DNA of 58,819 nt from positions 1 through 58,819 of the forward strand of contig NZ_AAYC01000020.1 in NCBI RefSeq assembly GCF_000169455.1, in the 5' to 3' direction. The notes beneath the pieces are model-generated. The model had not been told where the DNA came from. It did not search any database and saw nothing but the letters and a program-made list of their open reading frames with translations. How positions within the stretch are numbered: the first letter of the stretch is position 1; every line of letters begins with the position of its first letter. Made by a program: the position numbers and the translations under genes. Source of the stretch: Roseobacter sp. SK209-2-6. GTDB lineage: Bacteria > Pseudomonadota > Alphaproteobacteria > Rhodobacterales > Rhodobacteraceae. Below, one piece after another: positions 37,109 through 46,126 of this stretch.

Positions 37109-37249
37109 GTTGAAAGTTCAGCAATCGTAACCAGCTATTTCAGTCTGAGCATGACGAAGTACTTTGTACAACAAAAGTTGCTTGGTCTCTGGTGTATTTC
37201 AGAACAAATCAATTTTGATCAGCCCCATCGAAGTGGTCCAGTGTGAGTG

Positions 37250-38065
37250 TTAGTGCATGATCGGCCTGGTTTCCACCGGAACGATGGCTTCCGGAGCCGG
37301 TGGGCGATAGCCCAGAGCACTATGCGGCCGTTTTGTGTTGTAGTGATTTCTCCATTGTTCAATCAGGATCTGGGCTTCACGCAGGCTGTAAAATACCTCT
37401 CCATTCAGCAGCTCGTCTCTGAAGCGCGCGTTGAAGCTTTCACAGTATCCGTTCTCCCAAGGTGATCCTGGTTCAATGTAGGCCGTTTGGGCACCGACCG
37501 CTGCGATCCAATCTCGAACGGCCTGAGCAATGAACTCTGGGCCATTATCTGATCTGATGAAAGCAGGAACGCCACGCAGGATGAAAAGATCTGTCAGCGC
37601 GTCAATAACTTCTGCCGAGTTCAAGCGCCTCTTCACCCGGATCGCCAGGCATTCCCGGCTGTGTTCATCCAGAATGTTCAGTGTCCGGAACGCTTTCCCG
37701 TCATCCGTTCGATGGTGCACGAAGTCATAGGACCAGACATGGTCACGATATTCGGGCCGGAGTCGAACACACGACCCGTCGTTCAGCCAGAGCCGTCCTT
37801 TCTTCGGTTGTTTCATTGGAACTTTCAGCCCCTCACGCCGCCATAGGCGCTCAACACGTTTGTCGTTGATTTGCCAGCCGGCGTCTCTCAGAAGAGCCGC
37901 TATCCGACGGTAACCGTATCGACCATATTGGCGTGTCAGTTCGATCATGTCAGACACCAACCGGTCTTCGTCAGCACGTCCAACAGGCACCCGCCTCTGT
38001 GTGGAACGGTGCTGTCCCAGAACACGGCAGGCGCGACGCTCTGAGACGTGGAACTGGCGTCGCAC
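37250..38065 (-). CDS. IS3 transposase OrfB (DDE integrase domain)
   Basis: The 271-aa frame carries the IS3-type rve domain: the first Asp in HVWSYDFVHHRTDDGK, the second in FIRSDNGPEF, and the Glu in ENGYCESFNARF. A helical HTH_21-like part precedes it (YGRYGYRRIAALLRDAGW). In the IS3 family it is made as OrfAB after a -1 frameshift near the end of orfA, so the frame extends upstream of this ATG. All catalytic residues are present; likely active. Confidence 0.9.
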   Translation of the reverse strand: MRRQFHVSERRACRVLGQHRSTQRRVPVGRADEDRLVSDMIELTRQYGRYGYRRIAALLRDAGWQINDKRVERLWRREGLKVPMKQPKKGRLWLNDGSCVRLRPEYRDHVWSYDFVHHRTDDGKAFRTLNILDEHSRECLAIRVKRRLNSAEVIDALTDLFILRGVPAFIRSDNGPEFIAQAVRDWIAAVGAQTAYIEPGSPWENGYCESFNARFRDELLNGEVFYSLREAQILIEQWRNHYNTKRPHSALGYRPPAPEAIVPVETRPIMH

Positions 38066-38097
38066 ATGATCAATGCAGTTACGGCGGCGCGAGGGGC

Positions 38098-38376
38098 TCA
38101 GAAGTTTCCCCGTGCAGCTTCCGACAGAATGAGCTTGTCCAATGTCAGATCAGAAACTGCCCAACGCAGCCGGTCATTCTCCTTCTGAAGTCGCTTTAGT
38201 TCCTTCAGTTGGTCGGTTCCCATACCGCCATATTGCTTGCGCCAGCGATAGAAGGTTTGTTCTGTAATCTGCACCTGTCGAATGGCGTCTACGCGCGGCA
38301 TCCCTTGGCCGCAAAGCACCTCAACCTGCCGTAACTTCGTGACAATCTCTTCGGGCTTGTGTCGCTTGATTCCCAT
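38098..38376 (-). CDS. IS3 transposase OrfA (helix-turn-helix)
   Basis: The 92-aa product has an HTH (KPEEIVTKLRQVEVLCGQGM and FYRWRKQYGG) and a leucine-zipper-like helix (LKELKRLQKENDRLRWAV), the standard OrfA of IS407-like elements. It overlaps the frameshift window into orfB and binds the IS ends. Start ATG 38376 follows a GGAGG-like site. Confidence 0.9.
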   Translation of the reverse strand: MGIKRHKPEEIVTKLRQVEVLCGQGMPRVDAIRQVQITEQTFYRWRKQYGGMGTDQLKELKRLQKENDRLRWAVSDLTLDKLILSEAARGNF

Positions 38377-38432
38377 ATCTGATCCTCCGTTTCCTAACTA
38401 TACGGGCGGATCACTTCAGTGGGGGAGGATCA

Positions 38433-44773: not shown

Positions 44774-44829
44774 TGAGCCTCCCCAACTGAACTGGTCCAC
44801 CGCTACGTTTAGGAACCGGAGGACCAAGA

Positions 44830-45114
44830 ATGGCAAACAAGCGACCAAAGCCCGAAGAGATTGTCTCGAAGTTGCGGCAGGTTGAAGTTCTGATGGGGCA
44901 AGGCATGCGCCGTCTGGACGCGATCAGACAGATCGGCGTTGTCGAACAGACCTATTATCGCTGGCGCAAGCAATACGGCGGAATGGGCGTAGATCAACTG
45001 AAGGAACTGAAGCGTCTTCAGAAGGAGAACGACCGGTTGAGGCGAGCTGTGTCTGACCTGACGCTCGACAAGCTGATCTTTAGGGAAGCTGCGAAGGGAG
45101 TGATGGCCGTCTAG
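44830..45114 (+). CDS. IS3 OrfA, copy 2
   Basis: This 94-aa frame is homologous to orfA of copy 1 (KPEEIVSKLRQVEVLMGQGM, FYRWRKQYGG-like YYRWRKQYGG, LKELKRLQKENDRLRRAV). It is intact. A perfect hairpin (GAATTGATCC / GGATCAATTC, 45115-45137) follows directly after its stop and could stimulate the -1 frameshift into orfB. Confidence 0.85.
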   Translation: MANKRPKPEEIVSKLRQVEVLMGQGMRRLDAIRQIGVVEQTYYRWRKQYGGMGVDQLKELKRLQKENDRLRRAVSDLTLDKLIFREAAKGVMAV

Positions 45115-45387
45115 GAATTGATCCTGTGGATCAATTCAGGCCCGAACGGGCGGAGCCCCTGAGCCCCGCTCGTCTTCGTGCTTGCATCGACCATGTCCGC
45201 AGCCAGTTCAAAGTGTCTGAGCGCAGGGCCTGCCGCACTCTGGGTCAGCATCGAACGACGCAGCGCAAGGTGCCCCAAGGCCGGGCCGATGAAGAGCGTC
45301 TGACCGACGACATCATCGAACTGGCCGACCAATAGGGGCGCTATGGCTACCGCATGGTCACTGGCCTGCTGACCAACGCAGGCTGGC

Positions 45388-45429
45388 CCCCTCTCGGCAG
45401 ATCGCTTCGCAATTGCCTGCCGGGCAATG
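45388..45429 (+). repeat. Palindromic insertion element, copy 1 (about 41 bp)
   Basis: It starts CCCCTCTCGG and ends TGCCGGGCAATG, with a 20-base centre. Comparison with the intact IS3 copy and normal IS3 reading (GWHV-NHKRVERI type) shows a net gain of 41 bases at this site. The second copy at 45839 has the same start, the same end and the same length. Confidence 0.75.
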
Positions 45430-45838
45430 TGTGAACCACAAGCGGGTCGAGCGTATCTGGCGGCGTGAAGGGCAGAAGGTTCCAGCTAAGCAACCGAAGA
45501 AGGGGCGGCTCTGGCTGAATGACGGATCATGCGTGCGGCTGCGGCCGGAATATCAGAACCATGTCTGGTCCTATGACTTCGTTCATTGCCGGACAGATGA
45601 CGGGAAGGCGTTCCGGACGCTGAACATCATTGATGAGCACAGCCGGGAATGCCTGGCGATCAAGGTGAAGCGAAAGCTGAACTCTGTAGACGTGATTGAT
45701 GCCCTGACGGATCTGTTCATCCTGCGTGGGGCGCCAGCCTTCATCCGGTCAGACAACGGTCCTGAGTTTGTGGCTCAAGCTGCCCGGAACTGGATTGCGG
45801 CCGTGGGTGCCAAGACCACCTATATCGAGCCTGGCTCA

Positions 45839-45880
45839 CCCCTCTCGGGACATCGCCATGCGATGCCCTGCCGGGCAGTG
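45839..45880 (+). repeat. Palindromic insertion element, copy 2 (about 41 bp)
   Basis: Starts CCCCTCTCGG, ends TGCCGGGCAGTG, with centre GACATCGCCATGCGATGCCC, itself a hairpin (CATCGC / GCGATG). It interrupts the conserved SPWENGYCESFN box between SP and WE. Net gain is 41 bases, equal to copy 1. Confidence 0.75.
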
Positions 45881-46126
45881 CATGGGAGAACGGATACTGC
45901 GAAAGCTTCAATGGCCGGTTCCGGGACGAGCTGCTCAACGGGGAGATTTTCTATACCCTGCGTGAAGCCCAGATCCTGATCGAAGAATGGAGGAAACACT
46001 ACAACACCAAACGGCCACACAGTGCATTGGGCTATCGCCCGCCAGCGCCAGAGGCAATCATCCCGATGAAAAGCAGGCCAATCATCCACTAACAATCAAC
46101 TTGGACCAGTCAGATGAGGCTGCTCA

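Follow-up and report, generated by a model that had tools for sequence, protein, structure and literature searches.

The window, the whole 58,819-nt stretch of Roseobacter sp. SK209-2-6 DNA that was analysed, contains a broken insertion sequence (IS) whose transposase gene holds two inserts of 41 nt. Judging from sequence comparison, these inserts are members of a large family of tiny hairpin mobile elements in Rhodobacteraceae. We consider it probable (about 0.72) that the element is a non-autonomous mobile hairpin, moved in trans and living mainly in IS elements.

Very small mobile repeats that have no known enzyme are a standing puzzle, to which this family adds a bacterial case. Its assets are sharp borders, a covarying structure, wide occurrence across genomes and a marked bias to transposase genes. 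What moves small repeats, and whether they restrain transposons, becomes testable here in culturable marine bacteria. For annotators, a share of the 'broken' transposases in Rhodobacteraceae bears a recognisable insert.

Two inserts in one transposase gene

The relevant features of the window are the following.

37216-38432, minus strand: IS copy 1, an uninterrupted relative of IS copy 2 with an open orfB (37250-38065); it supplies the empty sites
44774-46126, plus strand: IS copy 2, IS3-type, with ends TGAGCCTCCCC...GGCTGCTCA; it bears elements 1 and 2, a TAG and a third palindromic insert
45100-45153, plus strand: third insert, 54 bp, another kind of palindromic repeat, in IS copy 2 where orfA meets orfB
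45389-45429, plus strand: element 1, 41 nt, core 45390-45426, in orfB of IS copy 2, sense; palindrome imperfect
45840-45880, plus strand: element 2, 41 nt, core 45841-45877, in orfB of IS copy 2, sense; clean hairpin

A preliminary description of this DNA had reported two extra pieces of equal net size in the orfB of IS copy 2. Both are present as described, in the form CCCCTCTCGG-N20-TGCCGGGCARTG at 45388-45429 and 45839-45880, and each amounts to 41 nt net when IS copy 2 is aligned to IS copy 1; the best placement of each is C+core+RTG, which gives the borders listed above. The pattern CCCCTCTCGGN{15,25}TGCCGGGCA has two matches within the window, against none in 100 shuffles. The interrupted orfB carries an rve domain, and element 2 enters it at ...EPGS^PWENG....

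We aligned IS copy 2 with its relatives in 40 distinct rows, counted by hand with near-identical copies kept in. Of these, 8 carry insert 1, 21 lack it, and in the other 11 its site is either not covered or cannot be aligned. For insert 2 there are 7 rows with the insert and 24 with an uninterrupted site, and 9 rows do not extend over it. Since the relatives are mostly uninterrupted at both sites, neither insert is ancestral to orfB, and the alternative considered earlier, an ancestral part of the transposase gene, is ruled out.

The centre of element 2 folds into a clean hairpin, as had been noticed (fold z -1.51 vs shuffles). That of element 1 is imperfect and alone folds no better than shuffles (z -0.30, single-strand fold): element 1 is a decayed example of the family.

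The genome has this IS with both inserts three times; the three copies are 98-99.5% identical, differ in their flanks and share the TAG in orfB (45333-45335). IS copy 1 may provide transposase in trans for IS copy 2. A diverged IS on contigs 23 and 24 (pieces 78-83% identical) has insert 2 at the identical site, together with a second element whose left side lies at the insert-1 site, the DNA to its right having been lost by deletion.

Anatomy of the element

Family counts are based on a list of 106 sites, of which 88 are distinct after sites with similar flanks were merged. Near-matches were admitted only if their stem score was 5 or higher, strict matches whatever their stem. Left out before counting were four strict matches that have no palindrome (L015, L016, L023 and L025), and also three matches with two mismatches that on visual inspection were not considered elements.

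The architecture is (C)CCTCTC, a variable inverted repeat, then TGCCGGGCARYG, over a length of about 34-47 bp (a core of 30-43 nt, plus about 4 for the full element). Its fixed parts are CCTCTC and TGCCGGGCA, the latter forming a small inverted repeat alone. Among the distinct sites, CCTCTC is preceded by C in 80/88 and by CC in 61/88, and RYG follows TGCCGGGCA in 71/88. The two ends, CCTCTC and GGGCARYG, do not form an inverted-repeat pair.

As many as 77 different centres occur among the 88 distinct sites. Their longest perfect stem averages 6.08 bp, vs 2.94 bp in shuffles, a mean that was reached by 0/200 shuffled sets. Across the 29 distinct cores of 37 nt, eight stem pairs are paired in 223 of 232 cells; pair 11:25, which occurs as GC, CG, TA or TG, is paired in 27/29 cores, vs 13.4 expected with independent arms. 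Compensation in these cores is strong at pairs 11:25, 12:24 and 13:23, and slight at 8:27. It is the pairing of the centre, not its sequence, that is conserved, with arms that covary.

A few element-like hairpins have GC-rich arms followed by a GG-rich tract (for example GGAGGTATTTGG after L061). They were seen at L061 (about 1543, minus strand), L076 (about 1491, minus strand), L235 and L259, at least two of them adjoining ordinary genes, and are possibly a separate spacer-borne subgroup.

Family size and distribution

The preliminary description had proposed a small, mobile palindromic repeat whose ends are equal and whose centre varies, and a search for further copies in this genome and in Rhodobacteraceae. 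The proposal is borne out by many copies, empty related sites and hits in other coding genes. The pattern CCTCTCGGN{15,30}TGCCGGGCA has 14 strict copies in the genome of Roseobacter sp. SK209-2-6. A strict pattern occurs in 90 of 394 Rhodobacteraceae genomes, a count that includes a few matches with no palindrome; one reversed-pattern match was noticed, in G167. A looser pattern gives 125 matches, vs 4 for the reversed pattern, summed over 10 related genomes picked because they hold copies of the element. In a class sample of 115 genomes, the strict pattern is found in the genome of SK209-2-6, not in the single other family member, and in 1/113 genomes of other families; the match there has no palindrome, its longest stem being 3.

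A scan of a contig collection, our second set, returned at least 118 matching stretches, 80 of which were analysed. Among the matches listed, 84 are strict; the stem reaches 5 bp or more in 56 of these, 4 bp in 8 and at most 3 bp in 20. The records of the 56 listed are titled Rhodobacterales, Rhodobacteraceae, their genera or other alphaproteobacteria, and include one Labrenzia and one Rhodospirillales bin, with the lone exception of L237 (stem 5, deltaproteobacterial bin).

Rfam returned only two weak matches, both far below cut-offs. A literature search, largely of papers outside subscription, found no earlier description of the 41-nt element; element strings searched as text in papers led to no description either, the papers examined being on unrelated subjects.

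Insertion sites and borders

For 38 of the 106 sites an uninterrupted relative is available among the loci. By the closest relative, the net insert is core+4 in 24 of them, core+3 in 10, core+5 in 3 and core+2 in 1. The borders of the insert are sharp, and at these 38 sites no target-site duplication is seen, unlike in MITEs. GAT or GAC is preferred to the right of RYG and C as the left neighbour, which gives a loose target of YC^GA.

The core+4 length is a multiple of three in 14/88 sites. Longest open frames make a poor frame test, as alternative frames stay open in GC-rich DNA. Relative to the transposase gene, 46 of the 71 assigned distinct sites are sense and 25 antisense (p 0.017).

Targeting of conserved or catalytic sites was considered and rejected. 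Peptides at the junctions suggested inserts beside Asp/Glu codons, in what we took to be catalytic Asp/Glu motifs, and a better control removed the effect. The first test of conservation put junctions at the 0.69 percentile (62 flank sides), or 0.71 vs same-motif positions (46 sides); it is biased, because its windows lie at segment ends, which local alignment reaches only where the end is conserved. The junction can be placed inside the open reading frame of a relative for 29 sites, with 5 sites that have no coverage left out. For such junctions, internal to intact relatives, conservation is 0.55 (p 0.27, 29 sites), and 0.62 vs same-motif positions (p 0.053, 26 sites), neither of which is significant. 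The earlier statement that the inserts lie within conserved coding boxes therefore stands for elements 1 and 2, not as a significant bias of the whole family.

Preference for transposase genes

A transposase-homologous flank lies within 900 nt at 89 of the 106 sites, across several IS types and in both orientations. We label these types, with names that in part go beyond the Pfam descriptions, as IS3, IS5 (several groups), IS110, IS21, IS66, IS481 and IS1182-like. As the seeds for this count were drawn from those same loci, we made a second test on the contig-collection set. There, among the matches listed, a transposase flank lies within 700 nt in 34 of the 56 sites with a stem of at least 5, and in 5/28 of the weaker-stem matches. 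The second set overlaps the discovery set at two loci, L224 and L253; with L224 set aside as a discovery locus, the listed share is 33/55. None of 40 random positions (20 contigs from nine other family genomes carrying elements) has such a flank, which gives a Fisher p of 2e-11 for 34/56 vs 0/40, the two samples coming from different genomes. Pfam on 20 pieces of unmatched second-set sites found transposase domains at L210, L262 and L285, and one below the cut-off at L206; these four are not counted in the 34/56. In G018 alone, a transposase flank was found at 23 of 26 merged sites. The majority of the sites examined are thus in transposase genes, which belong to several IS types and are hit in both orientations.

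At 17 of the 106 sites there is no transposase match, and Pfam on pieces of 16 of the 17 likewise finds none; in the second set, 22/56 sites among the matches listed are unmatched by transposase seeds. Some unmatched sites adjoin ordinary genes (L061, L076), L259 lies near an ornithine cyclodeaminase gene and L274 near a histidine kinase gene. At L070 (about 1524, in G014), the host gene of the element adjoins an HTH_3 gene, and we take this host gene, by motif, to be toxin-antitoxin-like.

Identical cores recur across IS types: one is shared by IS110 and IS3 relatives, another by IS5 and IS110, and in G018 one core is found both at an IS5-type site (L134) and at an IS3-type site (L145). IS copies bearing two or more elements also occur. 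In G024, six near-identical copies of an IS3 (L053-L057 and L059) each hold the same three elements, in both orientations; this IS has multiplied although it is broken. No clear target duplication accompanies the element-bearing IS copies, and the sole sign that they have transposed is that their flanks differ.

Proposed mechanism and alternatives

Sharp entry with no duplication, conserved pairing and the same cores across IS types together point to a hairpin moved by a trans-acting recombinase. Such an enzyme would recognise the hairpin, folded in single-stranded DNA, along with the fixed ends, and would insert it at a nick at YC^G; by analogy, we infer a single-stranded step in the movement of the element. 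A stem free in sequence with matched arms would follow if recognition were of pairing alone. Template switching between hairpin arms is established in general, and by copying changes from one arm to the other it would help to keep the arms matched. Element copies in host genes would be purged, while those in IS elements would persist and multiply, since the transposase of an intact relative would move the broken IS and transfer would occur between genomes. The element would then be a hyperparasite of insertion sequences, and by disrupting transposases it may tame the IS to the benefit of the host. No mobilising enzyme was found, and the Y1 transposase, the sole candidate family tested, does not track the element.

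The IS preference can reflect survival after the loss of host-gene hits, or real targeting, and the data fit both. Simple neutral insertion seems unlikely, because few spacer copies were recognised among the loci examined. A dedicated IS-targeting hairpin of ~40 bp would be a bacterial transposon-silencing device, if its mobilising machinery picked out transposase genes across unrelated IS families or if the host kept the hairpin for use against them; this we put forward tentatively, at well under an even chance. Slightly less likely, in our view, is that a host- or element-encoded system aims hairpins at transposase genes in order to silence the IS, so that location is not a by-product of survival. 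Active targeting of this sort would account for an IS share far above background (34/56 among the matches listed in the second set, 0/40 at random positions), for hits in several IS types and both orientations, for IS copies that hold two or more elements and for the 23/26 in G018; work on the SMR-A repeats of Haloquadratum reached much the same view, in the part of that report available to us (PMC3119063). Against it, no common target signal is seen beyond YC^GA, the bias to conserved codons is not significant with edge effects taken out, no gene is known to be linked to the element, and broken IS copies still multiply, which makes silencing incomplete.

Were the hairpin skipped in making the transposase, by programmed translational bypassing or RNA removal, the IS would stay active; the order of fixed shoulder, hairpin and fixed shoulder, the multiplication of element-bearing IS copies and the moderate sense excess (46 vs 25, p 0.017) would agree with this. 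Antisense insertion at 25 of the 71 assigned distinct sites, elements in both orientations in the six-copy IS of G024 and the TAG in orfB of all three copies of the window's IS make it very improbable. We give equally little weight to ancient insertions handed down within a small number of IS lineages, together with gene conversion and with no mobility of their own: diverged relatives do share sites, such as the SPW site in copies from G000, G005 and G007, but there are 88 distinct sites across several IS types, and identical cores turn up in IS elements of more than one type. Repeats of the REP kind, mobilised by a RAYT (Y1) transposase, would likewise be short hairpins in many copies with no target duplication. 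However, PF01797 is found in just 3 of 36 family genomes scanned, the strain's own included (a fragment in G000, then G018 and G026), whereas G001, G005, G007, G008, G013 and G024 bear elements and have no PF01797 match. One Y1 locus each from G000, G018 and G026 was checked and holds no element, and GTAG or CGTC occurs at the ends of 0/106 sites; this origin we regard as the least probable of all. The preferred reading remains the mobile hairpin moved in trans.

Comparison with known small repeats

The byps of yeast mitochondria are mobile hairpins with fixed shoulders that sit in coding genes, always in sense orientation, whereas the Rhodobacteraceae element occurs in both orientations (25/71 antisense) and breaks frames. 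REPs and REPINs are short hairpins, probably mobilised in trans, with a GTAG tag and a linked Y1 gene; in our family the GTAG tag is found at 0/106 sites, and no Y1 gene is linked in the loci examined. A likeness to Rickettsia palindromic elements had also been suggested. It holds in so far as both are palindromes in alphaproteobacterial coding genes, and fails on frame, orientation and the CGTC tag: the Rickettsia elements preserve the reading frame and host proteins tolerate them, while ours are mostly frame-shifting (core+4 a multiple of 3 in 14/88) and lie mostly in IS genes. RAYT-driven REPs, CGTC-REPs, in-frame palindromes of Rickettsia type and programmed bypassing are not supported as models for the family.

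In the accessible part of a study that covers REPs and REPINs with RAYT transposases, the CGTC tag is reported for the RPEs of R. conorii (PMC3733652); it is absent from the Rhodobacteraceae element, which occurs in both orientations. The CGTC REPs of alphaproteobacteria, RPE-4 and RPE-6 included, are presented there as short stem-loops with varied stems and no dedicated transposase, bearing the CGTC tag at one end and arranged mostly as head-to-head dimers (PMC3733652). Compared with that partial account, our element is likewise a short alphaproteobacterial stem-loop with a varied stem, but has no CGTC tag (0/106) and sits mostly in transposase genes.

The closest precedent is archaeal, the small mobile repeats of Haloquadratum. 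According to the portion of the report that we could consult, SMR-A and SMR-B of Haloquadratum walsbyi have no coding capacity, cause no target duplication and have no known mobiliser; they measure about 110 bp (one SMR-B 80 bp), have terminal inverted repeats and high identity within a type, and strongly prefer other mobile elements, for which a role against transposons was suggested (PMC3119063). For the most part, SMR-A is described there as inserting not into the transposase ORF but into palindromes, those of IS605-type elements and PATEs (PMC3119063). To the extent of that portion, the Rhodobacteraceae element resembles these repeats in its lack of coding capacity, of target duplication and of a known mobiliser, in its preference for mobile elements and in a possible role against transposons. 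It differs from them in its length of 34-47 bp, its one variable central hairpin and its lack of terminal inverted repeats, and from SMR-A in occupying the transposase genes of several IS types.

Other palindromic inserts and a second hot spot

About 20 nt downstream of the insert-1 site, a second hot spot (AAGCGC^GTCGAG) is seen in IS3 copies of G018. The loci concerned are L145 (about 1518, minus strand), L103 (about 1639) and L154 (about 1498), and L145 has elements at both places.

The third insert of IS copy 2 (45100-45153) had been overlooked in the preliminary description. Its palindrome is perfect (GGAATTGATCC..GGATCAATTC), and similar ones occur elsewhere, three in G055 and one in G002 (loci L103, L106 and L174-L177), with arms that are changed but mostly matching and a tail like CGAACGGGCGGAGCCC. 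By their letters, this insert and its relatives in G055 and G002 represent a second kind of dispersed palindromic repeat.
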